From Cohaesibacter sp. ES.047 (GTDB lineage: Bacteria; Pseudomonadota; Alphaproteobacteria; Rhizobiales; Cohaesibacteraceae): DNA of 64,000 bases. The stretch covers positions 124,001 to 188,000 of the forward strand of contig NZ_LT907844.1 of assembly GCF_900215505.1 (NCBI RefSeq), read 5' to 3'. The stretch's first letter is position 1, and each line of letters starts with the position of its first letter. The translations under genes and the position numbers were made by a program. Below the pieces are notes generated by a model. It was not told the DNA's origin. It saw only the letters and a program-made list of their open reading frames with translations, and ran no database searches. This document shows positions 36,519-53,155 of the stretch, one piece after another.

Positions 36519-36560
36519 TTTCGCCCCCGAACTTCCATGCTTTTCGACCGGTTTCTCTGA

Positions 36561-39500
36561 ATGCCCGACACCAAGACACCAAACACCACGACTCCAGGCC
36601 CCACCCCCAAAAGATCACTTCCCGGCAGGCTCGGCAAACGTCTGCTGCAAGCTCTTGTTGCCCTTGTCATCGTGATCCTCTTTGGCGTTCTGGTGGTCTT
36701 GTTTCTGCTGGGCACCTCACCGGGGCGCGGCCTGACGGTAGAGATCGTCAATTCGCTCGCCAGCAGTGACGAACAGACTGTGGAAATCGCCGGGCTCGAC
36801 AGTGCGCTCGGGTCGTTGCGCCTGTCATCCGTTCGTCTTTCAGATGCCGATGGCATCTGGTTGGAAGCAAAAGACTTCTCGGCGGACTATTCCCTTGCGT
36901 CTCTTCTGGCCATGCGCCTCGATGCGGATCACATCACCCTTGGCAGCCTTGAAGTCGTGCGCCCTCCCGTTGCTTCAACTGCGACGACAGACGAGACCTC
37001 AAGCTCTGGAGCTGATCCTCTGGCCTATCTGCGCGCCAAGATCGACCGACTGGCCGTTGGCGAGATCAAGCTCGGAGCGGCGCTGCTCGGCAAACCCGCC
37101 ACGCTCACACTTGACGGCAATGTCACCATTGAAGGACAGCCGCTTCAGTTAGCGGGCGCGATCGATATCCAGCACAAGGACAGCTCTAAGGGCTACATCA
37201 AGGGGAACTGGGATATTGCCCCTAGCCAGAACCGGCGGCAGATCGATCTCGATGTTGCCGAGCCGCGTGGTGGTCTCATTGCGCGCCTTCTCGATATGGA
37301 CAACCTGCCCGCCCTGCGCCTCACCCTTGCTGGCGACGGGTCCGCAGATGACTGGCGCTCCGACCTTGAAGTCTCACTTGACGGCACGCCGACGGTGACG
37401 GGCGAGATGATCATTCGGTCAAGCCAGCAGGTGCGCCGGGTTGAAGCCTCGCTCAATGGCAAGCTGGCCCCTTTCCTGCCGACAAGCGTCGTTCCGTTGG
37501 TGGCAGGCGATAGCAATCTCACCCTCGCACTTGAGCAGGATAACGCTGACCTCTACGCCCTCAAGCAGCTCCGTTTCACCTCCGGTCTTGCAAGCCTTGA
37601 TGCCGCAGGTACCGTTGATATTGGTGGGCGATCCGTTGATCTGACGAGCCGGTTCCAGCTTGGGCAGGAAGGCACGATGCTGACCATCGAAGACGACGCT
37701 GGCGGTCGCTATCAGCTCGGGTTTGTCGATGTGACCAGCCGCGTTGCGGGCCCTCTTGACGAAGCAGCGATTGCGCTTGAGGCAAGGCTCGAGCAACTTG
37801 TGCAAGGCTCAACCGAGCTTGGCAGGCTTCAGGTCAAGCTCAATTCTGAGGGTTTCAATCTGGAGGATGTGAGCGGGCCGCTCGATGCGACCGCCACCAT
37901 CGCCAGCCTAACCACGGGGACCGAAGCGCTCGACAAGGCGCTCGCAGGACCGGTCAACCTGTCCGTTCGCAGTCAGATTGACGGTAGCGTGATCACATTG
38001 GACGAGACCTCGCTGGCCACAGGCCTCCTGACAGCAGGCCTCACCGGTTCGGCCTCAGCCTCCACGCTCGATCTTGATGGCAGGATTGGTCTGTCAGGCC
38101 TTGAGCGCATTGATCCGCAGCTTGCGGGCTCGCTCGCAGGTGATTTCACCGTTTCGGGGTCGTCGACGTCACCCGAGCTCAACCTTGAGATCGCGGGTGA
38201 GGACGTCGCGGTGGCAAAAAAAGCCATCGAAGGGCTCAAGCTGACTCTTGACGCTGACGCTGTGCCCAATGCCGCGTTTTCCCTTGTTGCCAGCTATGAC
38301 GGCTCCCCCCTCAAGCTCGCGGCCAATCTTGTCAGCAACGAGGATGGCAGCCGGGACGTACGCGACATCATTCTCTCGGCGCCGGGCGGCACTGTCGAAG
38401 GGGCTGTTGCGATCTCGCCAGCGGGCCTTGCAACGGGTGACCTAGATGCCAAGATTGCTTCCTTGAAAAAACTGGGACCGCTTCTGCTTCAGCCCGATCT
38501 TGAAGGCTCGCTAGAGGCGGACATTGCGCTGCGCGCCGACGAAGACAGGCAGAATATCAATGTCACGGCGTCAGCGGCCACTTTGTCCATGCCATCCGTT
38601 TCGCTGTCGGATCTGGCTCTAGAAGCCCGCATCCGGGACGCCACCAATGCCATGGGCGTCGAGGCCACGGTGTCCCTTGCCAATCTGAATGCCGGCGGCG
38701 AGCGGGTGCGCAACCTGTCCGCCCGCATGGAAGGCGATACCGGCACCCTGCCCTTCTCGCTGGATGCCAACGTCTCCAATGCTCCGATGACCCTGAAGGG
38801 CGTTCTGCGCCAGAGCGCCTCGGAAACAACCATCGAGCTGTCGCGGTTTTCCGGAAAGTGGAAAGGGATCGCGCTGGCGCTTTCCAAGGCGACCAGTGTC
38901 AATCTGACGAATGGCGCAACGCTGAGCAGCCCCCTTGTGCTTAAGGTCGACAGTGGGACGGTCACTGTGTCGGGTGAGGCCGGAGACAAGCTTGATCTCA
39001 AGCTTGCGGCGCGCAATCTGCCGCTCTCGATCGCAGACAAGGTCGCCCCGACGACCGGTGAAGCCATTTCGGGAAGCCTCAACCTTGATGCGGATATCAG
39101 CGGCACGTCCGCCGCGCCGCGCGTCAAGTGGAACGGCAATGTCTCCAACCTGTCCGCGCGTTCCATGCGGGCAGCCGGTGTTCCGGCCATGGCGATTGAT
39201 ACCAACGGCAGCCTTGAGAACAATCAGGTCAGACTGAACAATGTGATCACCGGTGGCGGCTCGAAACTGACGCTCAAGGGCGGGGTTGCGCTGTCCGGCC
39301 CGCGGCTCGATCTCAGCGCCGACGGGACGATCCCCTTCTCGCTTGCGGCGCGGACGCTGGCTGATGCAGGCCTCAGGCTCAATGGCAATGCAGCGGTATC
39401 GGCACGGGTGACCGGCTCGGCAACCAATCCCAGCATTTCGGGATCCGTGACCACGCAAGGGGCGCGGCTGATCGAACTGTCCTCCGGGCTAGTGATCAAC

Positions 39501-40610
39501 AATCTCTCCGGAACCGTGCGTCTTTCCGAGCAGACTGCACGGCTTGAGAAGTTTTCTGGCACAATCGGCAAGGACGGATCATTGTCCATAGCAGGGACCG
39601 TGGGCATAGATCCAGCCCAGCAGCTGCCAGCTGATATCACTCTGACCATGAAGAATGTCAATTTCCGTCATGAGGATATCCTCAATACCCTGTTCGATGC
39701 CGATCTGAAGCTCAAAGGCAAGCTGGCAACCTCGTCAGTGCTGTCCGGGCGCATTGATCTGCGCTCGACGGAAATCATGATCCCCGAGACACTGCCGCAA
39801 TCAATCCCTGCGGTCTCGGTGCAACACAAGAATGCAGAAGGTGAGCTCGCCAAGCAGGTCAAGGATCTGCAGCCAAAACAATCGTCATCAGGATCCGGCG
39901 GCTCCACCATCGGGCTTGATTTGACCATTTCGTCGCCGCGCCGCATCTATGTTCGCGGTCGCGGAATAGACGCCGAGCTTGGTGGCACCATCAAGGTGCT
40001 TGGCACGACCTCCAACCCCAATCCGGTCGGGACGGTCTCCATGCAGCGCGGTCGCATGGACCTTTTAACCAAGCGGCTCGATTTCGACCGGGGCAGCCTC
40101 GGCTTTGCTGGTTCCCTTGATCCCAGCCTCGACTTTGCCGCGGTGGTGACCAACTCGGGAAGGACCTACACGATGGCCGTCGGCGGCTATGCGTCCGATC
40201 CGAACCTGTCGCTCACCTCTTCGCCTTCAATGCCGGAGGATGAGATCCTTGCCCAGTTGTTCTTCGACAGGCCGATTTCCGACCTTTCGCCCCTGCAGAT
40301 CGCCCAACTCGCCAACGCGGTGGCAACGATCAGCGGCGCCAATTCCGGCCCCGGTCTCATCGACCGATTGCGCAACCTTGCCGGGATCGACAACATCGAC
40401 ATCAAGTCGGACGAAAAAACCGGCGAAACTACGGTGGGCGTTGGGCGCTATCTCAATGACAAGACCTACGTCAATGTCGAGAAGGGCACCTCAAGCGACT
40501 CCGGCAAGGTGACCATAGATCTGGAACTCACAGGCCAAGTCAAAGCGCGGGGCGAGGCAGACACCTCGGGACGCTCCAAGGCAGGCATCTTTTTCGAGCA
40601 GGACTATTAG
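36561..40610 (+). CDS. tamB: TamB (inner-membrane anchored bridge protein, DUF490)
   Basis: Large protein of 1349 aa that spans the periplasm as a hydrophobic beta-groove and partners TamA in outer-membrane biogenesis or lipid transport. One membrane anchor lies at about residues 30-55 (LLQALVALVIVILFGVLVVL). The middle is a long series of beta-strand repeats rich in Leu, Asp, Ser and Thr, consistent with the AsmA/TamB taco fold. The C-terminal 350 residues hold the conserved TamB domain (GTVSMQRGRMDLLTKRLDFD, LTSSPSMPEDEILAQLFFDR) and end in GIFFEQDY. It starts 42 bp after tamA, so the two form an operon. A shared terminator follows. Confidence 0.95.
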   Translation: MPDTKTPNTTTPGPTPKRSLPGRLGKRLLQALVALVIVILFGVLVVLFLLGTSPGRGLTVEIVNSLASSDEQTVEIAGLDSALGSLRLSSVRLSDADGIWLEAKDFSADYSLASLLAMRLDADHITLGSLEVVRPPVASTATTDETSSSGADPLAYLRAKIDRLAVGEIKLGAALLGKPATLTLDGNVTIEGQPLQLAGAIDIQHKDSSKGYIKGNWDIAPSQNRRQIDLDVAEPRGGLIARLLDMDNLPALRLTLAGDGSADDWRSDLEVSLDGTPTVTGEMIIRSSQQVRRVEASLNGKLAPFLPTSVVPLVAGDSNLTLALEQDNADLYALKQLRFTSGLASLDAAGTVDIGGRSVDLTSRFQLGQEGTMLTIEDDAGGRYQLGFVDVTSRVAGPLDEAAIALEARLEQLVQGSTELGRLQVKLNSEGFNLEDVSGPLDATATIASLTTGTEALDKALAGPVNLSVRSQIDGSVITLDETSLATGLLTAGLTGSASASTLDLDGRIGLSGLERIDPQLAGSLAGDFTVSGSSTSPELNLEIAGEDVAVAKKAIEGLKLTLDADAVPNAAFSLVASYDGSPLKLAANLVSNEDGSRDVRDIILSAPGGTVEGAVAISPAGLATGDLDAKIASLKKLGPLLLQPDLEGSLEADIALRADEDRQNINVTASAATLSMPSVSLSDLALEARIRDATNAMGVEATVSLANLNAGGERVRNLSARMEGDTGTLPFSLDANVSNAPMTLKGVLRQSASETTIELSRFSGKWKGIALALSKATSVNLTNGATLSSPLVLKVDSGTVTVSGEAGDKLDLKLAARNLPLSIADKVAPTTGEAISGSLNLDADISGTSAAPRVKWNGNVSNLSARSMRAAGVPAMAIDTNGSLENNQVRLNNVITGGGSKLTLKGGVALSGPRLDLSADGTIPFSLAARTLADAGLRLNGNAAVSARVTGSATNPSISGSVTTQGARLIELSSGLVINNLSGTVRLSEQTARLEKFSGTIGKDGSLSIAGTVGIDPAQQLPADITLTMKNVNFRHEDILNTLFDADLKLKGKLATSSVLSGRIDLRSTEIMIPETLPQSIPAVSVQHKNAEGELAKQVKDLQPKQSSSGSGGSTIGLDLTISSPRRIYVRGRGIDAELGGTIKVLGTTSNPNPVGTVSMQRGRMDLLTKRLDFDRGSLGFAGSLDPSLDFAAVVTNSGRTYTMAVGGYASDPNLSLTSSPSMPEDEILAQLFFDRPISDLSPLQIAQLANAVATISGANSGPGLIDRLRNLAGIDNIDIKSDEKTGETTVGVGRYLNDKTYVNVEKGTSSDSGKVTIDLELTGQVKARGEADTSGRSKAGIFFEQDY

Positions 40611-40701: not shown

Positions 40702-43461
40702 TCAGTTGAGACCGTGCTTGTGCATGGACTCGACTTCCTGCGTTTTGAAATGGCCGAAGCGGGGCAGGAACTTGTCCCATTCAACCGTGTGGGCGTTGAA
40801 TTCCGGCCCATCAATACAAGCATGAAGTCTGAGGCTTTTGCCCTCTTCGGTGATAACCGGCACCATGCAGGCACCGCACATGCCCGTCGCATCGACCATG
40901 ATGGAGTTGAGGCTGACGACCGTGTGGACGCCGTAAGGCTTGGTCAGATCGCTCACCGCCCGCATCATCATCGGAGGCCCGACGGAGACGACTTCGACCA
41001 CCTTGCGCCCTTTGTAGACATTGCCCGCCTTGAGCATGTCTTCGAGCGGTCCGGTGACAAAACCATGCAGCCCAAAGGTGCCATCGTTGGTGCAGTAGAT
41101 GATGTCCAGCTTGTCGCCATATTGGGCCTTCAACTTGCCCATGCGATCATCATCGCCCGTCCAGAACAGGTGCCCTGCGGAACGGAACCCGATGATCATG
41201 GTGACGTTGTTGCCCATGCGCAGATGCGCCTTGGCAATCGGGAAGATGGCAGGCAGGCCGACGCCGCCAGCGGTGAAGACCACTGTTTCGTCTTCGCCGT
41301 AGGCCTTGACGTCGCTTGGCTCGCCAAGCGGCCCGGCGATACCGGCAAAGCTGTCACCCTCGGCCATCTTGTTCATCATCTTGGTGGATGTGCCCATGCC
41401 CTGAATGACAAGATCGATGGTGCCCTGCTCTGCGTCCCAATCAGCTAAGGTCAGCGGGATCAGCTCGCCATCATCGGTTGCCAGAATGCGGACAAACTGC
41501 CCGGCCCGGGCCGAGTGAGCCACCGCTGGCGCCTTGACGGTCATCTCGACAATGCCATCTGCCTGATCGATATGTTTGACGATGGTATGCTGAGCCTGCC
41601 CCAGACCGGTGAAGTGGTCGGCGGTTTTAACCCGGTTCCGGATTTCCTCCATAGGCAGGTCGATGTCACCGACGATTTCGCGGGCGGCGGCCTGACCGTC
41701 GCCAGCAGCAAGGATGGCTGTGGAGCCACCACGGGCCGCATCACCACCGGTGTAGACATCGGCAATCGAGGTTGACTGGGTTTCTTCGCCGACCTCAATG
41801 GTGCCCCACTTGCTGAGCTTGAGCCCCGGCTCGGAGGCCGGGATGATCGGGTTGGACTTGTTGCCCAGCGCCATGATGACCAGATCGGCCGGTATGTTGA
41901 TGACTTCGCCAGTCGGCTGTGGCCTGCGGCGGCCCGATGCATCGGCTTCGCCCAACTCGTTCACATCGACAACTGCATGGGTGACGAAGTGGCTGTGCGG
42001 ATCACCAAGGAACTCTTTCGGGCCGCGAAGCTCTGCAAGCTTGATGCCTTCTTCCAGAGCGTGATGCAGTTCCTCGACGCGGCAAGGCATCTCGGACTGT
42101 GTCCGGCGATAGACGATGGTGACATTGCCGCCAAGACGCTTGGCCGTACGGGCGGCGTCCATCGCGGTGTTGCCGCCACCAACGACAAGGATATTCTTGT
42201 CTTTGACGTCCGGCAGCGGGGTCTCATATTTCGGATCCCGCCCGCGCATCAGGTTGACCCGCGTGAGGAACTCGTTGGCCGACATGACACCGAGCAATTC
42301 CTCGCCCGGAACATTCATGAAGGTGGGAAGCCCGGCACCGGAGCCGACAAAGATCTTCCAGAAGCCAGCGGCTTTCAGATCCTCAAGAGTTGCGGTCTTG
42401 CCAACGACGAAGTTCTTGACGAACCGTCCGCCAAGGGCGTCGATCTTGCCAACCACGTCATCGATCAGGCTGTTGGGCAGGCGGAATTCGGGAATCCCGT
42501 AGCGCAGCACACCGCCCAGTTCATGGAAGGCCTCGAAGACCGTGACCGGGAACCCTTCAGCCGCCAGAAGATAGGCGTTGATGAGACCGGACGGGCCGGA
42601 GCCAACCACCGCGATGGGTGGTTTTTCGGCCATTTCCCATGGGCTGACAAGGCCGCGATAGGCCGCCAGCGGATCATTGGCAACGAGCTTTTCATGTTCG
42701 GGCAGATACCATTCGATCTGACCGATCTCGATGGGCCGGTTGGTGTGTTTGCAGACACCCTGACACTGATGCTCTTGCGGGCAGACGCGACCGGTGACGT
42801 TCGGCAGCGGGTTGCAGCTTTCGATCAGTTCGAGTGCCTGACGGATCTTGCCATTGCCGATCAGATCGATCATCTCGGGGATGTGGATCTTGACCGGACA
42901 GCCGCCGACTTTTTCCTGCTTCTTGTGGCGTTCCATGAGCACGCCGAGTTCGCAGGGCTTGTCTTCGCACTGCTTGTCGCGCATCACTTCGAGCCAGACA
43001 AAAAGCTCCACCTCGCGCACGCTGTAGCCCAGCGCCTGATAGCCCAGATAGCCGGTGTTGACCAGCTCGAAGTCATGGTTGCGTTCTTCGGGCGGCCGCA
43101 CATAAGGAGGGATGAAATTGTCCGCAGGCCAGCCTTTCGACAGGCCCTTGAACATGGGATAGCGCTCGGACATATGCTCATCGAGCGCCCGAACGAACTT
43201 GCGCTTGAACTTGAGCGGCAGGCCCCAGAGGAAGCGCTGCAACACGGTCGACATATCGTCATCGCGCAGCAACAGGTTCCAGAGAACGCCAATGAAGCGT
43301 TCTCCGATCTTGTCTTGCTGGAACTCCCAGGCGATTGCCTGCGTGCCATCGGCAACAAAGAGGTTGCGCAGGGATCTGGGGTCGGCAGCCAGATGCTTTT
43401 TCAAGACATCAAGCTGCAGGCTGAACAGATCCTCTTGAGGGGATAAGGCTTCAACACTCAT
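40702..43461 (-). CDS. NfnSL-like fusion: GltD-type flavoprotein joined to a ferredoxin-NAD(P)+ reductase domain
   Basis: Flavoprotein of 919 aa in which both halves of the Nfn (ferredoxin:NADP+/NAD+) transhydrogenase are joined. Residues 1-185 are not recognised. About 189-260 carry the Cys-rich [4Fe-4S] region of GltD/NfnL (CPVKIHIPEMIDLIG, CNPLPNVTGRVCPQEHQCQG). The FAD site AVVGSGPSGLINAYLLAAEG is near 285 and the NAD(P) site LVVGGGNTAMDAARTAKRLG near 425. About 618-900 form the NfnS/PyrK-type reductase, with a [2Fe-2S] motif DATGMCGACMVP and HACIDGPEF (about 857-890). Its ATG overlaps the stop of the PFOR gene (ATGA), so it is translationally coupled. It probably passes PFOR electrons to NAD(P); electron bifurcation is inferred, not shown. 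Confidence 0.85.
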   Translation of the reverse strand: MSVEALSPQEDLFSLQLDVLKKHLAADPRSLRNLFVADGTQAIAWEFQQDKIGERFIGVLWNLLLRDDDMSTVLQRFLWGLPLKFKRKFVRALDEHMSERYPMFKGLSKGWPADNFIPPYVRPPEERNHDFELVNTGYLGYQALGYSVREVELFVWLEVMRDKQCEDKPCELGVLMERHKKQEKVGGCPVKIHIPEMIDLIGNGKIRQALELIESCNPLPNVTGRVCPQEHQCQGVCKHTNRPIEIGQIEWYLPEHEKLVANDPLAAYRGLVSPWEMAEKPPIAVVGSGPSGLINAYLLAAEGFPVTVFEAFHELGGVLRYGIPEFRLPNSLIDDVVGKIDALGGRFVKNFVVGKTATLEDLKAAGFWKIFVGSGAGLPTFMNVPGEELLGVMSANEFLTRVNLMRGRDPKYETPLPDVKDKNILVVGGGNTAMDAARTAKRLGGNVTIVYRRTQSEMPCRVEELHHALEEGIKLAELRGPKEFLGDPHSHFVTHAVVDVNELGEADASGRRRPQPTGEVINIPADLVIMALGNKSNPIIPASEPGLKLSKWGTIEVGEETQSTSIADVYTGGDAARGGSTAILAAGDGQAAAREIVGDIDLPMEEIRNRVKTADHFTGLGQAQHTIVKHIDQADGIVEMTVKAPAVAHSARAGQFVRILATDDGELIPLTLADWDAEQGTIDLVIQGMGTSTKMMNKMAEGDSFAGIAGPLGEPSDVKAYGEDETVVFTAGGVGLPAIFPIAKAHLRMGNNVTMIIGFRSAGHLFWTGDDDRMGKLKAQYGDKLDIIYCTNDGTFGLHGFVTGPLEDMLKAGNVYKGRKVVEVVSVGPPMMMRAVSDLTKPYGVHTVVSLNSIMVDATGMCGACMVPVITEEGKSLRLHACIDGPEFNAHTVEWDKFLPRFGHFKTQEVESMHKHGLN

Positions 43462-46400
43462 TTGACGATCTCCGCATCACAGGTTGCTGCGACCTTGGAA
43501 AGCCGGGCGCTCAGCTGCGGGGTCATCTCGACCTGATCCAGAGCACCGGGGATCGTGTGCGCGACCTGTTTGGCCGCCCCGTCGACGATGACCTTGGTCA
43601 ACTCGAACAGTTCGGGCACTTCCTGATAGCAGGTCTTGCAATCGGTGCAGAGGCTCACATCCTCATCATGGATATGCGGGATGGCCGAACCGTTGGCTTG
43701 AGGCGCAGCGGCAGCTGGTGCAGCAGCAGCAGTTGGAGCCATAGCCCCACCGAAGCCAACCGCAGCGGGCGCTCCGGATGCAGCCGCCAGCTCACTCATG
43801 CCGGTTGCGATGCTGTCCATGGTTGCTTCACGGTCGTTGATCGCTTCTTCATACTGCTGTTTCAAAGACGCGATCTCTGCCTTGTGCTCGGATGACACCT
43901 TGACCATGTCGAGGCCGGCCAGATGCTGGAGTGTCCGCCAGTTGTGGCGCCGTTCCTCGACCAGATGCACAACCATCTCACCGACTTGCAACCGAACCAG
44001 TTCGCGCTTGCCGTTGGTCTTGTAGACGAACGGCACCACGCGGCCCCGCTCGACTTTCGGCAGGTTGATATAGTCGTGGATCGGCACGCCTTCCACGCCG
44101 TCCGCCAATGGACGGAACTGCTTTTTGAAGCGGGTTTCATCATGAGCATAGTCGGCCGGGGTCAATGGAACATCCATCAACTTGAGCTGACCGTCTTCCA
44201 TATATTCGAGCGTCATGGTTGCCCAGTCGTGATCCATGGCAGGGTTGCCTTCGATCGAGAAGCGCTCGGCGAGGGTTTCACCGGCCTTGGGATCATGGAC
44301 AAAGAGCGGGCTGACACGGGCTTCCACCGCCAGTCTTGCGCGGCGGTTGGCAGCATCGTCGGCGATGCCATGCTCACCCTGACAGGGGGTGTAGACATCC
44401 AACAGGGCCGGCGAAGTCGAATGCTTCAGATAGGCCATCACATTCTTAAGGAAATGGCCGGGGAAAGCCGTAGCACTCTGCACCACCAGCACATTGGGGT
44501 GGAAGGAGGCGATGAGGCCCAGTTCCTTGCGGTCCTCCAGCTTGCCGGGGCTGGCCTTGCCGAAGCGGGCAAGGTCACTGTCTTGCCCCGAAAGGCTGGC
44601 CGTGGACGCCTGACCACCGGTGTTGGAATAGACACCGGAGTTCAGCACCATCACCTTGATCGGCGAGTTGCTGGCCAGAAGGCGGGACAGGGCACCAAAG
44701 CCGATATCGTAAGCGGCACCGTCACCGGAGATGTTCATCACCGTTGGCAGAAGATCACGCTCGTCTTTGGAGAAATCGTGCCATTCGAAGTTCTTCAGGA
44801 ACGCATCGTCCGTTGCCGGATCGTAGGCGTTCGCAAGCTCGAGCTTGGCAACGCGAAGCGCCCGGAAGTCGGCGGCGGCATTGGCCGTCATGCCTTCGAA
44901 CAGACCCTTGGCAACGGCGGGGCCATCCTGGAACAGGCTGTTGACCCACGGATCATTGTAGGGGTTGTAAGGGAAGGTAGAGGCATAAACCGAGCTACAG
45001 CCGGTGGCGTTGGCAACCATCAACGGCGATGGACCATTGCCTGTTGGACCGCCTTCCAAGAGGAACAGGCGTTTGTTGAGCGTTTTAAGGGTCGCAGCGA
45101 TGCGGTCCTCGCGCTCTTTGTCGCCCTTGACCTCGACGAGTTTGTCGCCAAGGCGCTGAACCAGCTGCTCCATCTCGCGGATGTGGGCTTTCTGACGGCG
45201 ATCATGGATCGCATGGGTTGCCGAGACAACCTGACGGATCGCGGTCACTTCGCCACAGCCGCGGCAGGCCCCATGACCACCGGTGGTGGCGTAATAGGTG
45301 CTGCGATCGAGCATCATGCGCTTGATTTCGCTGTCGGACTCAAAGGCCGGCTCGACGAAGCGGGCTGGCGTATTGGGTGTTTTCGACAGGAAGTTGAATT
45401 TCGCCTGAAGGTCCTGCAAGAGCGGAGCGTCCTGCTCGGCTTCCACCAGAGCGCCCGGACCGCAGATCTCGACGCATTCCAGACAGCCTGTGCATTTCCA
45501 AGGATCAATCGCGACCGTGAACAGACCGCCCTGACCGGAATGCTCTTTTTCCGGCGTATCAAAGAAAGGCCGCGTCTTGGCGACGGGCAGCACGGCAACA
45601 GCCTCGACGATGCGGGCAAGGTTTCCCTTGACGACGGCGCTTTCGACATAGAGCTCATCAACCGCGGCTTTGGTCAGCTCGGCAAAGCTGGCTTCGGCTC
45701 CCCCATTGAGCTTGGCACGGACGGCATCACCGACCGAACGGATATGCTCGCGGATGACCTCACGCTGGGCGTTCGGCATGTCGACATTCTTGGCCGCTGA
45801 CATCAGCAGCTCGTTGATATCAAAGACGCTCGGAGGAATGGCTGCATCCGGGCAAACCATGGAGCAGTCAAGACAGCCCGTACAGGCATCGGGGTTGAAG
45901 ACCGGAACCGCACGGCGGAACAGACCCTTGTCCTTGCCAGCGGCAGTGCCAGAGGGCATGAACATGCCCGAGCCCGGCAGCACCGGAGCCTCGCCGATGG
46001 ACCCATCGCGGTAAGATGCCGCCATGGAGTCTTCATAATAGTTGTGGTCGAACAGCGCGGATGGCGATGCATCCTCGGCAATGCGGCACATACTGGCAGA
46101 GATCTTCGGCGAGAAGACCGGCTCCTCATCTACCGTAGCGCTGATCGCTTCGAATTCAGGTGACGTATAGTCGACCAGAACCGTTGCTTTGAGGCCATCG
46201 CGGATGACCGCCATGTTGCCATCGACAACGGCGGCACCCTTGTTGCCGAACTTGTAGGCAATCTGGCTGCGGACCTTTTCAAGCAGCGCGTCTTCGGAAG
46301 CGCCCTTGGAGACGCGATCGACGTGACCACAGATCGAACCGATGAAGGCGATCCCCATCATGCGGGTTTCAAGCTCGGGGCTTGGGGCATGTTTCTTGGC

Positions 46401-48434
46401 GATCTTGAAGCCGTCAATCACCATGAAGCGGATCTTGCGCTGGATGATGGTCTGGCGCATGGCCGACGGCATTTCCTTCCAGACCTCAAGCGGCGACAGG
46501 TTGGACTGCAGGATGAACGTGCCACCCTCGATCAGGCCGCGCAGTGGGTTGGAATGGGCAAAGACCTTGTGGTCGGGCGAGACAACCACTTCCACATCTT
46601 CCAGGTCAGCGTTGGTGATTTTCACCGGTTCTGGCGACAGGGTGATGTAGTAGTTGGTCGGCGCGCCGGATTTTTCCGAGCCGTATTTCGGTGCGGCCTT
46701 GGAGTAGAGGTTGAGCACGTTGGCTAGGATATCGGTGAGCAGCTTGCCGGTTGCGATGGTGCCGTAACCGCCCACAGAGTGGAAGCGGATGCGGAGGGCC
46801 TCATCGGGCAGCATGCGCGGATTGGCTTTGGTTTCCAGCGCCATCAGCTCGGTTTCGGGATAGGCAGCGCGGAGTTTTTCCTGCAGCTCGGCCATGGCCG
46901 GGTGCGGATCCTTGGAGAAGAACTGGCTACCGAGATAAACGAACGGCGCGTTCTTGCCTTCCATATTCTCAAAGGCGGCAACCATGTGCCGTGGCTGCAG
47001 ATCGTGCGCACCAAGACCGAAAATCGCAGTGGTCAGTTTCGGCAGTTCCTTGAGAGCCGGAATACCTGCATAGCGCGGGGCGGAGGCATTTTCGACAGCC
47101 TTGAGAAGGGCCTCCTTGACAAGACCGGTAAGGGCCGTGACGTCGGAGCGTTCAAGGATGGTCGCGGCTTTCTTGCCTGCAAGGGCGGCAACCATTTCTG
47201 CTTCCGGGAAGGGCTGCAGCATCTTGACGGAGATGACGCCGACCTTCTTGCCTTGACGGCGCAGATAGGATGCAACGGCTTCGGCATCGTCGGTCACAGA
47301 GCCCAGACCGATCACGACGGTTTCGGCATCGTCGCATTCAAAGGTCTTGATGGGCGCATAATGGCGGCCGGTGAGTACGGAGTATTCGTCCATCGCTTCC
47401 TTTACGAAGCGGGGAACGTCGCGCACGAAGTGGGTGCGATGGTCAACCGAGCCTGCCTGATAGTCTGGCTGGTTCTGAACACCACCGGTCAGGCCGGGGT
47501 TGTTGACATCGACCTGAGCGGGAACACGCTGGCGGGTGCCTTTGGGGGTGGCATTGGTCCACTGGCGTTTCCACTGGGCATGCAGCTCGGCGGGCACGAG
47601 TTCTAGCGTCTGGGCAATCAGCTCGCCGTCGTTGTCGGCCTCGATGGCATCGGAATTGTCACCAAGGAAGGCGATCAACTTGGCGTAGACATCCTGTTCC
47701 ATGTCCGAGCTGTGGCGACCGAGGTAGCGCTTCAGGTGGAAAACGCGCCCCTTGGAGCCGAACAGCATTTCCTGCGCGACGGTCGGGCACGGAATGTTGT
47801 CAGTCGGATCACCAATAAAGTCCGCCAGAAGCTCATCTTCAGGCATCAGGACTTCGCTCATCATGTGGCTGGTGACAAACCCGTCCATGCAGTTGGCAAC
47901 CGGGATCATGGACATCGCGCTGGCGCGATAGGAAATCGCGGCAAGGTCAGCCGATTCCTGAGGGTTGGAGCCGAAGAGGATCGTGTAGCCCGATGGCAAC
48001 AGGGCGTAGACGTCATCATGACCGGCCATCACGTTCAGCGAATGGCGGGAGACGGAGCGTGCGGCCACCTGCATGACAAAACCGCCGACTTTCTTGCCGA
48101 CGGTTACATAATGCGATTCCAGACCATACAGAACGCCCTGAGAGGACGAGGCGTTGGAAATATACTGGCCGCCGGTCAATGCGGCGCCAAGAGCACCGGA
48201 CTGGGCTGAATGCTCGCCTTCGGGCTCGAAGAAGAAGGGATGACGGCCCCAGAGGTTCTGACCACCGGATGCCCGGAAGGATTCATAAAGCTCGGCGATT
48301 TCTGTCGAGGGGGTGATCGGATAGCCAATCACACCACCGCAAACCTGGCCCATGACCTGTGCGATTGCACCGTTGCCATGAATGACGGTTGGAACTCCGG
48401 GATATACCGGCGTGTTAGGAAGTTTGTCGTTCAT
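43458..48434 (-). CDS. nifJ: Pyruvate:ferredoxin (flavodoxin) oxidoreductase with C-terminal ferredoxin-like extension
   Basis: Cytosolic enzyme of 1658 aa, about 450 longer than typical NifJ, converting pyruvate and CoA to acetyl-CoA, CO2 and reduced ferredoxin. Domains in order: pyruvate-binding region (GYPITPSTEIAELYESF, about 35-51), domain II, the gamma domain (FHSVGGYGTIATGKLL, about 555), two 4Fe-4S motifs (CTGCLDCSMVCPDA about 852; CTGCLECVEICGPG about 982), and the thiamine diphosphate domain with GACRGCGE (about 1057) and GDGAAYDIGFGALSRLL (about 1236). After about 1480 come a helical region, an Ala/Pro linker and CTDCKTCYQEVPELFEL with a distant Cys near the end, like a single-cluster ferredoxin. 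AGGTGG precedes the chosen ATG. An FNR/FixK site lies upstream. Confidence 0.93.
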   Translation of the reverse strand: MNDKLPNTPVYPGVPTVIHGNGAIAQVMGQVCGGVIGYPITPSTEIAELYESFRASGGQNLWGRHPFFFEPEGEHSAQSGALGAALTGGQYISNASSSQGVLYGLESHYVTVGKKVGGFVMQVAARSVSRHSLNVMAGHDDVYALLPSGYTILFGSNPQESADLAAISYRASAMSMIPVANCMDGFVTSHMMSEVLMPEDELLADFIGDPTDNIPCPTVAQEMLFGSKGRVFHLKRYLGRHSSDMEQDVYAKLIAFLGDNSDAIEADNDGELIAQTLELVPAELHAQWKRQWTNATPKGTRQRVPAQVDVNNPGLTGGVQNQPDYQAGSVDHRTHFVRDVPRFVKEAMDEYSVLTGRHYAPIKTFECDDAETVVIGLGSVTDDAEAVASYLRRQGKKVGVISVKMLQPFPEAEMVAALAGKKAATILERSDVTALTGLVKEALLKAVENASAPRYAGIPALKELPKLTTAIFGLGAHDLQPRHMVAAFENMEGKNAPFVYLGSQFFSKDPHPAMAELQEKLRAAYPETELMALETKANPRMLPDEALRIRFHSVGGYGTIATGKLLTDILANVLNLYSKAAPKYGSEKSGAPTNYYITLSPEPVKITNADLEDVEVVVSPDHKVFAHSNPLRGLIEGGTFILQSNLSPLEVWKEMPSAMRQTIIQRKIRFMVIDGFKIAKKHAPSPELETRMMGIAFIGSICGHVDRVSKGASEDALLEKVRSQIAYKFGNKGAAVVDGNMAVIRDGLKATVLVDYTSPEFEAISATVDEEPVFSPKISASMCRIAEDASPSALFDHNYYEDSMAASYRDGSIGEAPVLPGSGMFMPSGTAAGKDKGLFRRAVPVFNPDACTGCLDCSMVCPDAAIPPSVFDINELLMSAAKNVDMPNAQREVIREHIRSVGDAVRAKLNGGAEASFAELTKAAVDELYVESAVVKGNLARIVEAVAVLPVAKTRPFFDTPEKEHSGQGGLFTVAIDPWKCTGCLECVEICGPGALVEAEQDAPLLQDLQAKFNFLSKTPNTPARFVEPAFESDSEIKRMMLDRSTYYATTGGHGACRGCGEVTAIRQVVSATHAIHDRRQKAHIREMEQLVQRLGDKLVEVKGDKEREDRIAATLKTLNKRLFLLEGGPTGNGPSPLMVANATGCSSVYASTFPYNPYNDPWVNSLFQDGPAVAKGLFEGMTANAAADFRALRVAKLELANAYDPATDDAFLKNFEWHDFSKDERDLLPTVMNISGDGAAYDIGFGALSRLLASNSPIKVMVLNSGVYSNTGGQASTASLSGQDSDLARFGKASPGKLEDRKELGLIASFHPNVLVVQSATAFPGHFLKNVMAYLKHSTSPALLDVYTPCQGEHGIADDAANRRARLAVEARVSPLFVHDPKAGETLAERFSIEGNPAMDHDWATMTLEYMEDGQLKLMDVPLTPADYAHDETRFKKQFRPLADGVEGVPIHDYINLPKVERGRVVPFVYKTNGKRELVRLQVGEMVVHLVEERRHNWRTLQHLAGLDMVKVSSEHKAEIASLKQQYEEAINDREATMDSIATGMSELAAASGAPAAVGFGGAMAPTAAAAPAAAAPQANGSAIPHIHDEDVSLCTDCKTCYQEVPELFELTKVIVDGAAKQVAHTIPGALDQVEMTPQLSARLSKVAATCDAEIVK

Positions 48435-48696
48435 ATTTTCCACCTAGTTTTAGCCGACCGGTGTTCTCCTCCGCCAGTCAACCCAAAAGAAAGAAAGACA
48501 TTATCGGGCGCATGTAGCTAAAGCCCGCCGGTCGTGGGAAGACCGGAAGGATGATTCAAGGTCATAAAGCTATGCTGAAAAGACTGTACCCTGGTCATTT
48601 CTACCACGGCCATATGCCTCGAGACGTCGAGTTCATGCACTTGGTCCTCCCAATATCTGGTCACCTATCCAATAGTCTACATGGGAGAAATATACG

Positions 48697-48710
48697 TTGA
48701 CCTGCATCAA
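48697..48710 (-). promoter_or_regulatory. FNR/FixK-type binding site upstream of nifJ
   Basis: TTGAC-CTGC-ATCAA matches the TTGAY-N4-RTCAA consensus of alphaproteobacterial FNR/FixK proteins. It is about 263 bp before the nifJ start. TAGACT, about 25 bp downstream on the minus strand, could serve as a -10 for a class II activated promoter. The position fits anaerobic induction of the PFOR-Nfn operon. Confidence 0.6.
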
Positions 48711-49105
48711 CGGGCTTCAGACCTGCCGCTAGGGAAGTTTACATTGGAATTCCAATGCTACTTTTGATTGCTTTTACCCTGTCGAGAGAAGGCGCAAGAA
48801 AAAGTGCTTATATTTTCGTGTTTTAATATGGTCCACTATGGGAAAATGCGGTTTCTGGAGATCTGCAATCAGGAGAAAAACTTACTCAAAACACCACCTT
48901 AGCTATGCGATTTAGACATCGGTGTCATGCATTTTTGCACCGCGTCGCAGTTGTGACTCGCACAGTCCGAACGCTCTGAGCGCCATCCTGACCAAGCCCC
49001 TTGGCTGCAAGATGAGACGATGTCAGCACCAACTCAGCCCCTTATGGGTTGCGGCCCTAGAAGCGGTGGATGGGCTCTGATGCTGGCCCGTCGAGGGAAG
49101 GGGCG
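48711..49105. other. Gene-free stretch between the FNR-type site and the transglutaminase gene
   Basis: About 395 bp with no credible gene. The left part, upstream of the FNR/FixK-type site, is A+T rich. No clear terminator for the transglutaminase gene cluster was found, although one is expected here. Confidence 0.4.
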
Positions 49106-50230
49106 CTAGTAGGTCCTGTCGCCCGTAACCGGTTGGGGAGGCGTTTCGGAGGCGTCCTTGTCTTCCGAGAGAGAAGCGCTTTCAGCCTGCTGAAGTTGGG
49201 TCGACTGTGCATTTACGGATTGATTTTGCTCCTGAACCTGCTGGTTCTGACGTGTCAGATCCGGTTGCTGCGACGCTGTCTGGCTCGTCTGGCTTTGGGA
49301 CTGCTCTGCCGGGGCGGGAGCGCCTTCGGGATCGACTGACGCGCCAATCTCGTTGCCATTGTCATCGATGGGCATCACGTCCACGGACACATCGACAAAA
49401 TGGTTGCCGCCGCCAAGGATGATGCCGGAAATGGGGCTGATATCCTCGAAATCGCGACCGATGGTCAAGGTGACATGCTCATCGGCAATGACCTTGTTGT
49501 TGGTCGGGTCAAAATCCACCCATCCTGCCTCGGGGCACCAGACGGATATCCATGCATGAGACGCATCCGCCCCTATGAGCCGGGGCTGCCCCTCGGGCGG
49601 ATAGGTGCGCAGGTAGCCCGACACATAGCGTGCGGGAAGGCCCATGGCACGCAGGCAGGCCAGTTGAAGATGCGCAAAGTCCTGACAGACACCGCCCATG
49701 ATCTCGAACACTCGCTCGACGGGCGTGGATGCATCGGTGACCACACCGTCATATTCGAAGTCGGTGTAGATGCGGCTTGTCAGCTCACTGACGGCATCAA
49801 GCAAGGGCCGTCCCGGCGTGAAGGACTGGGCGCCATATTCGGCGATCTCATGGTTGGGGGTGGTAAAGCCCGAATAGCATGAGAATTCCGCTTCCGAAGC
49901 ATGGGCCGGATCGCGCATCAGGTCACGCACGGTTTCCCAACTGGCGGAAGCATTCTCGACCGCTTCGGCATGATCACGCTCGACCCGGATCGTGGAAAAG
50001 GCATGGATCGACAGAACATTGTGATCCTCTTCGATGGTCAGATGCACCGTGGGATTGCCGAAATAGTCAAAGAAGTCCCGCTGGCTCGCAGGACGCGGGC
50101 TGATGACAAGCTCATGGCTCTCGACAAGCTGACCCTTGGTCTGGCGAGGAGCGAGATGAACCAGATGGTTGGACTGCGCCACGGCATTGGCGTAGCGATA
50201 GTCCGTTTTGTGCGTGATACGATAGCGCAT
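49106..50230 (-). CDS. Transglutaminase-like protein with Gln/Ser-rich tail
   Basis: Cytosolic transglutaminase-fold protein of 374 aa. An N-terminal bacterial transglutaminase domain (MRYRITHKTDYRYANAVAQS, then the immunoglobulin-like strand region) precedes the catalytic core with Cys in GGVCQDFAHLQLACLRAMGL (about residue 180), His in GADASHAWISVWCPEAGW (about 225) and Asp in VDFDPTNN (about 240). The last 75 residues are low-complexity, rich in Gln, Ser and Asn and acidic near the end. It has no signal peptide. It lies 25 bp downstream of the ATP-grasp/alpha-E fusion gene. Family members are found with circularly permuted ATP-grasp and alpha-E proteins and may act as peptidases or transferases on a peptide tag. 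Confidence 0.9.
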   Translation of the reverse strand: MRYRITHKTDYRYANAVAQSNHLVHLAPRQTKGQLVESHELVISPRPASQRDFFDYFGNPTVHLTIEEDHNVLSIHAFSTIRVERDHAEAVENASASWETVRDLMRDPAHASEAEFSCYSGFTTPNHEIAEYGAQSFTPGRPLLDAVSELTSRIYTDFEYDGVVTDASTPVERVFEIMGGVCQDFAHLQLACLRAMGLPARYVSGYLRTYPPEGQPRLIGADASHAWISVWCPEAGWVDFDPTNNKVIADEHVTLTIGRDFEDISPISGIILGGGNHFVDVSVDVMPIDDNGNEIGASVDPEGAPAPAEQSQSQTSQTASQQPDLTRQNQQVQEQNQSVNAQSTQLQQAESASLSEDKDASETPPQPVTGDRTY

Positions 50231-50255
50231 TGGTTTGGTCCGGCCTCTCGATGAC

Positions 50256-52919
50256 TCAGATACGATAGGGCTGTTCTTCGGTGTGCGTAAAATAGCGCCG
50301 GGTCAGGATTTCCGTGAGCAACGGCAATTGGTTCGTCTGGTCTCGCAACAGGCGTTCGAGTTCGGATTCCTCGGCGATCATCTGCTCGATGTCCTTGCCT
50401 TCATCCAGTTGCGGGATCTGCGCTAGCAAATGGCCCTCTGCAAGCTGCAATTGGGACAACAGACTGAGCACCAATCGGTTCTCTTCGCTGCGCTGGCCGA
50501 TTTCAGGCTCCTTGGGCAGCGAGTGGATGTGATCATGAAGGGCTGCAATCTGGAACACCATGGACCGCGGATTGGCCTCGTCGAGCAACAGAAGATCGAT
50601 CACTGCTGGCAGCGATGGCATGATGCGATAGCGCGAGCGATAGGTGATGAAGCTGTCCGCGACTTCAAGAATGAACATCATGCGGCGCGGTGCATCTGCG
50701 GCCATGCCGGATGAGAAGACCAGCCGGCTGAACAGGGAAGACAGATTTTCCGCCCGCTCGATGCGCCGTCCCATATCCAGGAACCGCCAACCATAGTTGC
50801 GAGTCATATTCTCCATGGCAACGCCCGAGAATGCGGCGAGGCTGATGAGCCCTCGATCGATCAGATCGACCACCTGCCCCGAATGTACGAATCCGGGCTG
50901 TTGATGCCAGCGCCGATCCGTGAAGAAGTCATTGAGGATGCGCCACGCGTCAGACGACATGCGATCGCGGGTCAGACCCGCAAGCCGATGCATGTGGAAC
51001 CGGGATTCTTGAAAGCCATGCACCCGCCCCTTGCCATAAAGGATGGTGCGGACCAGTCGCTCGATTTCGTTCATGCCACCGAAACCGGCGTCAAAGATCG
51101 GAGCTTTGGGGGCACGCAGGATCAAGCTGTTGAGGGCCGTCGTGATGGTGCGCTGATCTTCCTCCGGACCACTGTCCTCATTGAGGCGGCTCAAGGCCTG
51201 CCGGCACAGGCGGAATTGCCATTCTGCGCGCTCCACATTGCGGCCCAGCCAGAAAAGATTGTCCGCTATGCGGCTTTGCAACGAGCGTCCGGCGCGGGAA
51301 TAGGCAGATGGGGATTCCCGGCTTGCCCAGATGCTCTCGAACGGTGCGGGTGTCGCATCACTTTGCACCCAAACGTCGCGGGTGATGCCATCGGGCGAAT
51401 AGAGCCCCACGGCCTTCTGGGCACCAAGGGACATCGACAATCCACCGGGCATGACCTGATAGTTCTTGGAACGCCGGAAGGTATAAAAGCGCACGGCAAA
51501 GGATTGCGGCTTGAGGCTGTTTCCGTCCCAACTGGGCGTGGTTGAAAAGTCCATCTTCTTTTCTGCAATCATCTGATTGCCGAACAGCTCGATGCGCTGC
51601 ATGAGCTGTTCCCTGCCCGCTTCGTCAAGTTCGGCCCCGTCGACGGCGGGTCGCACTTCGCCCGGTCGCCCGGATCCTTCATGCGCGTTGGAAATCAGCA
51701 TCTCGTCGAGATTGTCAACCAGATGACTTTTGGAAGCGGGATCACCAAGCCACCAGCGCGGGGCTTCGTGCAGTTTGAGATCCTCGCTCAGCAGATACTG
51801 GCAGATGCGCGGCAAATAGGGCGCAATGCCGCGGTTCTCGACTATGGCCGTGCCAAGCTGGTTGACGATCTTGACACCCATGCCGCGCACGGCGCGCACC
51901 ATGGAGGTGGCACCGTCAAAGCCGGTGGGATCCAGCTCCAAAGGATCGGCTTTGGCACCTTCGATGGACCGGACGATCAGGTCGATGGGTTTCAGACCAG
52001 CAAGTGTTTTCAGGCAGACCTGATTGTTCTGACAAACCAGATCTCCGCCTTCGACAAGCAGATACCCCAGATAGCGGGCCAGATAGGCATGGGAGAAATA
52101 ATCGGGATGATCGGGGCCGGGCGACAGCACCGCGATATGCGGATCATCAACGCCGGACCGATTGATCAGCGTGGTCTGGAGCTGCTGGAAATAGGGCGCA
52201 AGGCGCAAGGCGCGGCTCTCGCGGAACATATTGCTTTCGCAATGGGTGAGCGAAATCCTGTTCGCAAGCGCAAATCCCACTCCGGCAGGGGTTTCGGCAT
52301 GGTTGTCCAGCACCCGCCATGTGCCATCGGGCCCCTTGGCAAGGTCGGAGGCAAAGAACTGCAACCCGTTGGACATATTCTTATGGCCCTGCATCGAGCG
52401 CAGGTAGGTCTTGTCGCTAAAGATCAGGGCTGCAGGAACGAGCCCTTCCCGGATCAGTTTCTGCGGGCCATACAGGTCGAGATTGATGGCGTTGAACAGG
52501 CGCGCTCTTTGAGCAAGCGCAGCTTTCAGCCATTGCCATTCTTCAGGTGAAATGATCAGCGGTGCCAGATCGATCGACCAGGGCTGTTTTGTCTCGTTGG
52601 GATCAGCAAAAAGATCATAGGCAATGCCGGTTTCCCGCACCACCTGATTGAGCTGCTCTGCATGGGATGTGCGTTCATCGGGCGACCAGTTGGAAAAAGA
52701 CTGAAACCAGTTTTGCCAATGAGGCCGAATCTGACCGTTGCTATCCATCATTTCATCATGGATACCGGCCTGCGGCTGATAAAGCAGGGTGGGCATGTTC
52801 AATTGCACCTGTCCGGAGCGATTGGTGCTGCCACCGTTCGAGCTCTGGTTCTCGGTAGGCTTTGACTGGTTTACTTGCATAACGGTTCCGCGGTCATGAG
52901 CCATCCCCCTCAAACTCAT
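50256..52919 (-). CDS. Circularly permuted ATP-grasp ligase fused to an alpha-E domain
   Basis: Cytosolic fusion of 887 aa. Residues about 80-550 are a circularly permuted ATP-grasp (type 2) domain, with NAINLDLYGPQKLIREGLVP, RISLTHCESNMFRESRALRL, SPGPDHPDYFSHAYLARYLG and VEGGDLVCQNNQV. Residues about 560-870 are an alpha-helical alpha-E domain (LFWLGRNVERAEWQFRLCRQ, FLDMGRRIERAENLSSLFSR), which elsewhere is a separate protein. The same two functions are encoded by separate genes farther upstream in this locus. Start codon choice is uncertain: ATG codons at 52919, 52904 and 52880 are all in frame without a decisive ribosome-binding site. A peptide-ligase function is predicted for the family but unproven. 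Confidence 0.9.
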   Translation of the reverse strand: MSLRGMAHDRGTVMQVNQSKPTENQSSNGGSTNRSGQVQLNMPTLLYQPQAGIHDEMMDSNGQIRPHWQNWFQSFSNWSPDERTSHAEQLNQVVRETGIAYDLFADPNETKQPWSIDLAPLIISPEEWQWLKAALAQRARLFNAINLDLYGPQKLIREGLVPAALIFSDKTYLRSMQGHKNMSNGLQFFASDLAKGPDGTWRVLDNHAETPAGVGFALANRISLTHCESNMFRESRALRLAPYFQQLQTTLINRSGVDDPHIAVLSPGPDHPDYFSHAYLARYLGYLLVEGGDLVCQNNQVCLKTLAGLKPIDLIVRSIEGAKADPLELDPTGFDGATSMVRAVRGMGVKIVNQLGTAIVENRGIAPYLPRICQYLLSEDLKLHEAPRWWLGDPASKSHLVDNLDEMLISNAHEGSGRPGEVRPAVDGAELDEAGREQLMQRIELFGNQMIAEKKMDFSTTPSWDGNSLKPQSFAVRFYTFRRSKNYQVMPGGLSMSLGAQKAVGLYSPDGITRDVWVQSDATPAPFESIWASRESPSAYSRAGRSLQSRIADNLFWLGRNVERAEWQFRLCRQALSRLNEDSGPEEDQRTITTALNSLILRAPKAPIFDAGFGGMNEIERLVRTILYGKGRVHGFQESRFHMHRLAGLTRDRMSSDAWRILNDFFTDRRWHQQPGFVHSGQVVDLIDRGLISLAAFSGVAMENMTRNYGWRFLDMGRRIERAENLSSLFSRLVFSSGMAADAPRRMMFILEVADSFITYRSRYRIMPSLPAVIDLLLLDEANPRSMVFQIAALHDHIHSLPKEPEIGQRSEENRLVLSLLSQLQLAEGHLLAQIPQLDEGKDIEQMIAEESELERLLRDQTNQLPLLTEILTRRYFTHTEEQPYRI

Positions 52920-53155
52920 TTTTATGATTATTGTTCTGTTGCCGGTTTTGCTGCGAGTGTTTTACCCCTCGTCCGTTTGCCGGGTCTCTGCTTTTAGCAC
53001 CCCTTGAATGAAAAAACAAAGACAGATAGCGAACTCTATTGCTCTATATTCTAATATCTATGGGTAAAGACAACTTTTACACGAGAAGAGGCGACTATTG
53101 TCGCCCCTTTTACTCTTATCAAAGCCGTCCAGAACTACCTAACATCTTGTCTTTG

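Follow-up and report, generated by a model that had tools for sequence, protein, structure and literature searches.

Two large genes lie head to tail on the minus strand of the window, as we call the whole stretch of 64,000 nucleotides of Cohaesibacter sp. ES.047 that was analysed. One encodes a long pyruvate:ferredoxin oxidoreductase (PFOR), P0001, and the other a fused NfnL-NfnS flavoprotein of family NF009415, P0002 (Table 1). The ATGA overlap of the two genes that the original prediction reported is indeed present, and a 4-base overlap recurs in 15 loci, as judged from coordinates. A GTG at 48443, upstream of the P0001 ATG, would extend the protein to 1,661 aa.

The predicted FNR-type site 5' of the pair was confirmed as a palindrome fitting TTGAYN4RTCAA, a pattern for which mononucleotide shuffles give 0 to 0.008 expected matches per 700 bases. 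It forms a conservation island in 7/7 Cohaesibacter loci, within an upstream alignment that has just 15% invariant columns. The pattern was found in 0/8 Tropicimonas/Aliiruegeria loci and in one (L061) of the 14 other loci scanned, in several of which the start codon is approximate. Because of its presence in all Cohaesibacter loci versus its near-absence from the others scanned, we regard the box as a Cohaesibacter trait. An Rfam scan of 48300-49100 returned no RNA element at E<=1.

Table 1. Features of the PFOR-Nfn locus, in window coordinates
Feature	Position	Strand	Basis or remark
FNR-type palindrome TTGATGCAGGTCAA	48697..48710	(-)	276 bases upstream of P0001 ATG
P0001, long PFOR	43458..48434	(-)	1,658 aa from ATG
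POR_N domain, residues 35-207	47814..48332	(-)	Pfam
PFOR_II domain, residues 370-449	47088..47327	(-)	Pfam
POR (gamma-type) domain, residues 555-748	46191..46772	(-)	Pfam
First 4Fe-4S site, Cys 852/855/858/862	45849..45881	(-)	kept in 26/26 aligned
Second 4Fe-4S site, Cys 982/985/988/992	45459..45491	(-)	kept in 26/26 aligned
TPP-binding domain core, residues 1231-1286	44577..44744	(-)	Pfam
Ala/Pro/Gly-rich linker, about residues 1535-1584	43683..43832	(-)	alignment
Predicted single-cluster ferredoxin-like arm, 1585-1658, Cys 1597/1600/1603/1653	43461..43682	(-)	alignment
ATGA stop/start overlap, P0001/P0002	43458..43461	(-)	4 bases common, ...GTCAAATGAGTG...
P0002, fused NfnL-NfnS flavoprotein, family NF009415	40702..43461	(-)	919 aa
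N-terminal ~182-residue region, no known family	42916..43461	(-)	Pfam, no match at E<=1
Altered cluster motif RDx2Cx4C-x17-C(PV): D162, C165, C170, C188	42898..42978	(-)	alignment, motif scan
NfnL-like part, residues 185-596	41674..42909	(-)	GRVCPQExQCx3C intact
NfnS-like part, about residues 624-916	40714..41592	(-)	profile matches
NfnS [2Fe-2S] motif D857-ATGMC862GAC865...C882	40816..40893	(-)	three Cys in 22/22 P0002-type rows

Domain and cysteine content of the two proteins

P0001 carries the Pfam set POR_N, PFOR_II, POR, 4Fe-4S and TPP in the domain order of a canonical PFOR, and the twelve cysteines for the three PFOR 4Fe-4S clusters are present in all 26 aligned sequences, including Cys 1058/1061/1147/1352 around the TPP core (26/26), which we take to be the proximal cluster. 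T41, E74 and R126 align to T31, E64 and R114 of the 7plm/1b0p PFOR, presumably pyruvate-site residues. The original description of a NifJ-type PFOR holds for this domain set, but the protein exceeds the solved PFORs by about 430-490 residues, and NCBIfam PFOR model TIGR02176, although its top-scoring curated model, gives it 408 bits where the cut-off is 911; for both reasons it is no ordinary NifJ. The sub-cut-off score makes it PFOR-like rather than a TIGR02176 equivalog, and pyruvate is accordingly not certain as its substrate. Its PDB matches are fragmented into pieces.

The CxxCxxC...C of the C-terminal arm is kept in 25 of the 26 aligned PFORs, that is, in all 25 that have the arm, and the domain probably holds an iron-sulfur cluster. 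The window arm scores 19.6 against Pfam Fer4_13 (cut-off 24.5) and 19.4 against Fer4_15 (cut-off 22.4); all five Nfn-linked arms tested, the window's included, fall under both cut-offs, and all four tested from a sister branch of PFORs exceed the Fer4_13 cut-off of 24.5 bits (24.7-40.1). The alignment comprises 26 loci, 21 from the Nfn branch (one being the arm-less L061) and five from the sister branch; L034, L037, L039, the g326 genomes G408, G425, G491 and G505, and sister loci L089-L096 were left out.

P0002 scores 1670 bits against NF009415 (cut-off 1519). In the accessible text of Liang, Huang and Wang (2019, PMC6405883), Pattern C is described as a fused Nfn with NfnS at its C terminus, some 200 residues larger than the other fused kinds, and is reported from Alphaproteobacteria, Actinobacteria and Gammaproteobacteria. 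With its C-terminal NfnS part and about 200 extra residues, P0002 fits this description, and from length, NfnS position and NF009415 score we assign it to Pattern C (NF009415/PRK12779).

The first NfnL cluster motif of P0002 is altered, with Asp in place of one Cys (RDx2Cx4C-x14-19-CPV) in 27/27 distinct genomes. The NfnL motif given for bifurcating Nfn in the accessible part of PMC6405883, RCx2Cx4Cx3CPV, was absent from the P0002-type proteins of these 27 genomes. All six NfnL with at least 44% identity found in the search retain the Cys, and the Cys pattern was seen in 11 records, eight of them distinct (including one fused form, L007, and one cut, L041), in a scan that reports only sequences fitting either pattern, so that an NfnL with neither would stay unseen. 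Elsewhere P0002 is closer to type: GRVCPQExQCx3C is kept with a shorter tail, in which GQ[IL]EW or similar replaces the Gx2ER of x13Gx2ER, and the NfnS motif DGTGMCGxC...C appears as DATGMCGAC...C (G to A). Asp162, Cys165, Cys170 and Cys237 are the predicted ligands of the entry cluster. The underlying alignment holds 22 P0002-type proteins and the host's separate NfnL, without L039 (cut by a contig end), G408, G425, G491 and G505.

Genomic partners of arm-bearing PFORs

The original prediction named consistent adjacency among the results that would support it, and this is what we found: a P0002-type gene adjoins an arm-bearing P0001-type PFOR (match reaching residue 1657-1658) in 27/27 distinct genomes, made up of eight from the order sample, eight from genus g326 and 12 named loci, minus one (L030, counted as G306), with further duplicates between the named loci and other genomes possible. 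The presence lists of the two genes are identical, with eight genomes in a sample of 199 and nine in one of 398, and in these samples the arm-bearing Nfn-branch PFOR and a full-length P0002 never occur apart; these large searches scored two to four candidates per genome, so that misses, G367 included, are possible. For G367/L061, the single arm-less member, no P0002 was found within the 20 kb examined or among P0002 matches at E<=1e-80. This joint absence of arm and Nfn is an observation from one genome.

The pair also occurs in Tropicimonas, Aliiruegeria and genus g326 of the same phylum, and in two MAGs (L038, L039) whose Accumulibacter label comes from their records; the pairing describes the genomes found here, a set to which actinobacterial and gammaproteobacterial Pattern C Nfn do not belong. 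Distances of P0001 and P0002 correlate at r=0.98 (20 genomes in both alignments), as expected of any pair of linked genes. Within Cohaesibacter, the window P0002 groups otherwise than the window P0001 (support 40), in trees that are quick builds with several weakly supported branches. Among 43 plasmid records there was no P0001 copy above 60% identity; the matches include two long relatives (Gemmatirosa, Persicobacter), the others listed being 25-28% identical and mostly nifJ where annotated.

In the sister branch, whose PFORs also carry the arm, rnf genes adjoin in 13/13 full-length loci; the 13 do not include a partial PFOR (G001, L065) that is cut off by the edge of its contig and has an rnfB homologue as neighbour. 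RnfC (L064, L078) and RnfB (L064, L068) were named by NCBIfam, RnfD, RnfE and RnfA by our own reading of L064 and L078, and the remaining loci by homology to these. Thus, the arm accompanies a ferredoxin-oxidising partner in both branches, and, since sister PFORs carry it without Nfn, the arm by itself does not specify Nfn.

The host also has an nfnS-nfnL-korA-korB-orf742 locus, the protein of orf742 ending in an arm-like domain in 5/5 loci examined, which is a third instance of the arm. In a search of 18 genomes for orf742, 15 matched, four of them (G324, G352, G367, G399) by cross-hits only, the long PFOR included. The original prediction overlooked the C-terminal arm, the Asp in the NfnL motif and the Rnf-linked branch, which bear on the mechanism more than adjacency does.

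A proposed captive ferredoxin arm and its alternatives

We propose, with a probability of roughly 0.6, that P0001 and P0002 together form an anaerobic pyruvate:NAD(P)+ oxidoreductase whose captive ferredoxin arm hands electrons to Nfn. P0001 would use TPP and CoA to decarboxylate pyruvate, yielding acetyl-CoA and CO2, and two electrons would cross its three 4Fe-4S clusters to a fourth in the C-terminal arm, which, on its flexible linker, would deliver them to the altered entry cluster of P0002 (Asp162, Cys165, Cys170, Cys237). P0002 would then reduce NADP+, possibly by confurcation with NADH to give two NADPH per pyruvate. In Cohaesibacter, the operon may be induced by FNR when oxygen is lacking and so stand in for pyruvate dehydrogenase, an enzyme that the host genome encodes too (PDH E1 alpha is present). 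Cluster binding by the arm, the entry-cluster ligands, physical contact, electron route, substrate, coenzyme, confurcation and the anoxic role are all inferred from sequence. A PHA synthase is also present in the host genome, and a role of the pair in PHA synthesis is a possibility, although nothing connects the two.

A variant that we rate as possible, if on the unlikely side, keeps this route but makes the fused Nfn a non-bifurcating, simple ferredoxin:NAD(P)+ reductase: the altered first cluster motif in 27/27 genomes could disturb the low-potential branch, yet NfnS, its [2Fe-2S] motif and the remaining NfnL are kept, none of which a simple reductase would need. The two proteins might instead be independent, co-regulated enzymes, the PFOR reducing free soluble ferredoxin and the Nfn re-oxidising it, with the C-terminal domain serving stability or oxygen protection. 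The weak ferredoxin score of the arm and the classical Nfn adjoining a canonical nifJ on an Enterococcus faecalis plasmid fit such independence, which we nevertheless consider unlikely, given that arm-bearing Nfn-branch PFOR and full-length P0002 are never separate in either genome sample (199 and 398) and that the four arm cysteines are retained in 25/25 aligned arm-bearing members.

The low TIGR02176 score and the PDB matches in pieces would also suit another 2-oxoacid as substrate, the pair then being a 2-oxoacid:NAD(P)+ oxidoreductase akin to phenylglyoxylate:NAD+ oxidoreductase. We find this improbable, because the residues aligned to R114, T31 and E64 are kept, PFOR is the best curated model, and the host already owns a separate KorAB-type enzyme. 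Least probable is a pyruvate synthase running in reverse, in which NADPH would be bifurcated at NfnL and low-potential electrons would pass through the arm into PFOR to carboxylate acetyl-CoA; PFOR and Nfn are both reversible enzyme families and the sequence holds nothing that fixes direction, but a host that has PDH and an operon with an FNR-type box are more in keeping with a catabolic replacement used in anoxia.

Cells normally share ferredoxin as a freely diffusing carrier. If a PFOR kept its own ferredoxin and one dedicated acceptor, as we propose for P0001, very low-potential electrons would be channelled and not lost to oxygen or to competing acceptors, a possible advantage for facultative anaerobes, and the Nfn/Rnf alternation beside arm-bearing PFORs offers a direct experimental handle on such channelling. 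More tentatively, and with more doubt than confidence, we suggest a general design in which the captive ferredoxin arms of 2-oxoacid oxidoreductases are wired directly into an adjoining Nfn or ion-pumping Rnf, the Nfn branch being ferredoxin-independent, confurcating and Asp-ligated. If true, the Nfn branch would amount to a confurcating pyruvate dehydrogenase with no free ferredoxin and two NADPH per pyruvate, and the Rnf branch would couple the oxidation of pyruvate directly to an ion pump.

Relation to known systems

The original prediction knew of no described alphaproteobacterial system with this layout; the fused Nfn family was in fact published in 2019, whereas neither the Cys-to-Asp change nor the link to an arm-bearing PFOR was found in the accessible part of that Pattern C account (PMC6405883). 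Fused Nfn kinds are called uncharacterised there, and the pairing with P0001 points to a possible partner and function for Pattern C. PFOR beside Nfn is already known; the arm, the Asp switch, the Nfn/Rnf alternation and a PFOR within an rnf operon were not found in the literature searched, as far as the accessible text of sources including PMC6405883, PMC12174285, PMC3534657 and PMC6085437 goes, which covers few subscription journals and is no proof of absence.

Canonical PFOR/NifJ (1b0p/7plm, 6cin) has domain order, three-cluster cysteines, TPP domain and pyruvate-site residues in common with P0001, but measures 1,171-1,232 residues versus 1,658, P0001 adding the C-terminal linker and the extra Cys motif. 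On the E. faecalis plasmid NZ_CP142821, gltA/NfnS-like genes (116615-118784) and nifJ (118970-122215) are adjacent, as in our pair; unlike it, the nifJ match spans ~3.2 kb (query only to 1383) and the Nfn subunits are separate.

Phenylglyoxylate:NAD+ oxidoreductase PadEFGHI likewise oxidises a 2-oxoacid; it is built of separate small subunits, one of them dedicated to the pyridine nucleotide. It resembles P0001/P0002 in having its own pyridine-nucleotide part and differs in the small separate subunits and the substrate; P0001 is a weak match to the NCBIfam PadG model (115.6 bits, cut-off 700). PNO of Euglena and some protists is a single polypeptide with a C-terminal NADPH-P450-reductase-like part, and P0001 has no flavodoxin/FNR-type reductase Pfam domain at E<=0.001. 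The net reaction of PNO, from pyruvate to acetyl-CoA and reduced pyridine nucleotide with no free ferredoxin, would match that of the pair, which differs in being split over two proteins, one bearing an iron-sulfur arm and the other of Nfn type.

Conservation and context of the gene pair

The genes for the long NifJ-like PFOR (P0001) and the fused NfnL–NfnS flavoprotein (P0002) are encoded in a 5.11-Mb genome assembled as one contig, where their minus-strand coordinates were borne out and the ATGA overlap was seen. By coordinates, this 4-base overlap occurs in 15 loci, comprising that of the window, six other Cohaesibacter loci and eight from Tropicimonas/Aliiruegeria; in lineages beyond these, the two genes share a strand and remain neighbours, the gaps being short or the starts uncertain. 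The original prediction of consistent adjacency held in 27/27 distinct genomes, a set made up of the sample matches and 12 named loci, one of these counted as a duplicate. Just beyond the 3′ end of the pair lie two genes whose translations, on reading, suggest an outer-membrane assembly pair of the TamA/TamB type, and three genes upstream, named in the same way, look transglutaminase-like or related.

Coordinates of the features discussed
Feature	Position	Strand	Length
Two genes beyond the 3′ end of the pair	window 34539-40610	+	
P0002	window 40702-43461	-	919 aa
N-terminal region of P0002	window 42916-43461	-	~182 residues
P0001	window 43458-48434	-	1,658 aa
Three genes upstream of the pair	window 49106-56536	-	
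nfnS-nfnL-korA-korB-orf742	G000:C1:110335-118084 (= L076:6335-14084)		
Gemmatirosa korA/korB, rnfB and long PFOR	L077:3131-13055		

The two proteins also occur together. In the order sample (199 genomes), an arm-bearing PFOR of the Nfn branch (the PFORs paired with P0002) was found in eight genomes, and full-length P0002 in the identical eight; in the phylum sample (398 genomes), each was found in the identical nine, the window's genome included. Among the 190 genomes of the class sample, only the window's genome has a full-length PFOR of this branch or a full-length P0002, one further genome carrying a partial PFOR of the sister type. In the genus g326, P0002 is present in 8/8 genomes. The PFOR of genome G367 is 62% identical to P0001, with the match stopping at residue 1541, without the C-terminal arm; neither P0002 nor any convincing remnant turned up in the 20 kb examined around it, and G367 was absent from the genomes matched in the P0002 search. 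This arm-less, P0002-less genome is an informative exception, but a single one. Across 20 genomes, P0001 and P0002 protein distances correlate at 0.98, as expected of any genes inherited together. In the trees of both proteins, Roseobacteraceae copies adjoin those of Cohaesibacter, a grouping that, in protein trees viewed without a species tree, would fit joint transfer of the pair.

The predicted FNR/FixK-type site proved to be a perfect FNR-type palindrome in 7/7 Cohaesibacter loci, lying 276-308 bases before the PFOR start and standing out from a poorly conserved upstream region. It was not found in the scanned loci of other lineages, except for that of G367 (L061), and no known RNA element was found upstream of the PFOR gene. 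The window's genome also encodes pyruvate dehydrogenase E1 alpha and PHA synthase, both above curated cut-offs.

The putative ferredoxin arm and the altered NfnL motif

P0001 is PFOR-like in its Pfam domain set and in the twelve Cys expected of three PFOR clusters, kept in 26/26 aligned relatives; its score stays far below the curated PFOR cut-off (408 versus 911 bits). Its T41, E74 and R126 align with T31, E64 and R114 of the 7plm/1b0p PFOR, which are pyruvate-site residues. Whereas solved PFORs comprise 1,171-1,232 residues, P0001 is much longer, and ends in an Ala/Pro/Gly-rich linker followed by a domain of ~75 residues, whose four Cys (C1597, C1600, C1603 and C1653) are kept in 25/26 aligned proteins. 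The best matches of the Nfn-linked arms (5/5 tested, including that of the window) are Fer4_13 and Fer4_15, under the Pfam cut-offs, while 4/4 sister-branch arms tested exceed the Fer4_13 cut-off. Judging from the sequence, we read this domain as a probable built-in single-cluster ferredoxin.

P0002 has the expected NfnL-like and NfnS-like domains, in that order, and passes the NF009415 cut-off. Ahead of these domains is an N-terminal region for which Pfam gave nothing at E<=1 and which may serve to dock the PFOR. Liang et al. 2019 (PMC6405883) give RCx2Cx4Cx3CPV and GRVCPQExQCx3Cx13Gx2ER as NfnL motifs and DGTGMCGxC as the NfnS motif. P0002 retains the core of the second NfnL motif and, with G changed to A, the NfnS motif; the first NfnL motif reads RDx2Cx4C-x17-CPV, with Asp replacing the first Cys and a long last spacer. 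The Asp form occurs in 40 locus records, from 27 distinct genomes, and the Cys form in 11 records (8 distinct); among NfnL matches at least 44% identical in the class sample, P0002 itself excepted, all 6 genomes have the Cys form. The first motif and C237 presumably bind the outer cluster, the site of ferredoxin electron delivery (cf. dihydropyrimidine dehydrogenase and GltD). Because the motif altered here would, with C237, bind that cluster, the electron entry point of P0002 appears, by analogy, to have been retuned.

Related arm-bearing systems

The sister branch consists of PFORs that share ~35-38% identity with P0001; wherever the start can be placed clearly, their open frames span ~1,630-1,800 codons. 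They occur in one genome of the order sample, in 10/200 genomes from a different order within the phylum (two already in the 398-genome phylum sample) and on replicons of Gemmatirosa and Persicobacter. Each of the 13 full-length loci examined (L064, L068, L069, L077, L078 and L089-L096) has the C-terminal CxxCxxC...C arm and adjoining rnfB and rnfC homologues, the order being rnfB-PFOR-rnfC in 12/13 and, in Persicobacter, PFOR-rnfC with rnfB further downstream. Homologues of rnfD, rnfE and rnfA (names from reading) follow in 12/13; in L093, the contig ends after rnfC. Nfn and Rnf are both machines that oxidize reduced ferredoxin, and gene order links the arm-bearing PFOR of one branch to Nfn and that of the other to Rnf. 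In Gemmatirosa, rnfB and the long PFOR have korA and korB homologues upstream of them; a single Rnf may thus serve two 2-oxoacid oxidoreductases.

The window's genome also carries, some 47 kb away from the pair, a separate nfnS-nfnL-korA-korB-orf742 cluster, whose five-gene order is kept in 5/5 loci examined (L076 and L097-L100). For the product of orf742, Pfam gave nothing at E<=1e-5. This protein is similar to the C-terminal half of the long PFORs and terminates in an arm like theirs, but seems to have lost the TPP signature. Homologues (40-66% identity) were found in 10/17 other genomes, picked for having an Nfn or long-PFOR match; two of the ten are on a contig other than that of nfnL or are split between contigs. 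The orf742 product of the window's genome is the one described below. From its sequence, it appears to be an additional subunit that brings a ferredoxin arm to a 2-oxoacid oxidoreductase.

Proposed electron route and comparison with known systems

Most likely, pyruvate would be oxidized at the TPP site of P0001 and electrons would pass down the three PFOR clusters into the arm, which would then swing over to the NfnL entry cluster of P0002; the latter would make NAD(P)H, possibly with confurcation involving NADH. Direct sequence evidence covers the FNR-type box, the altered motif, the arm and the pairing of the genes; we infer the substrate, the coenzyme and confurcation along with this route.

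In the accessible literature searched, we saw neither a captive ferredoxin arm nor the Asp switch nor the Nfn/Rnf alternation described. P0002 itself fits the 'Pattern C' fused Nfn that Liang et al. 2019 (PMC6405883) term uncharacterised and report also from Actinobacteria and Gammaproteobacteria, so Pattern C Nfn is not new. Nor is a PFOR adjoining Nfn, since PFOR is named in the legend of a gene-arrangement figure in the same paper, and an Enterococcus plasmid likewise carries a PFOR beside Nfn.
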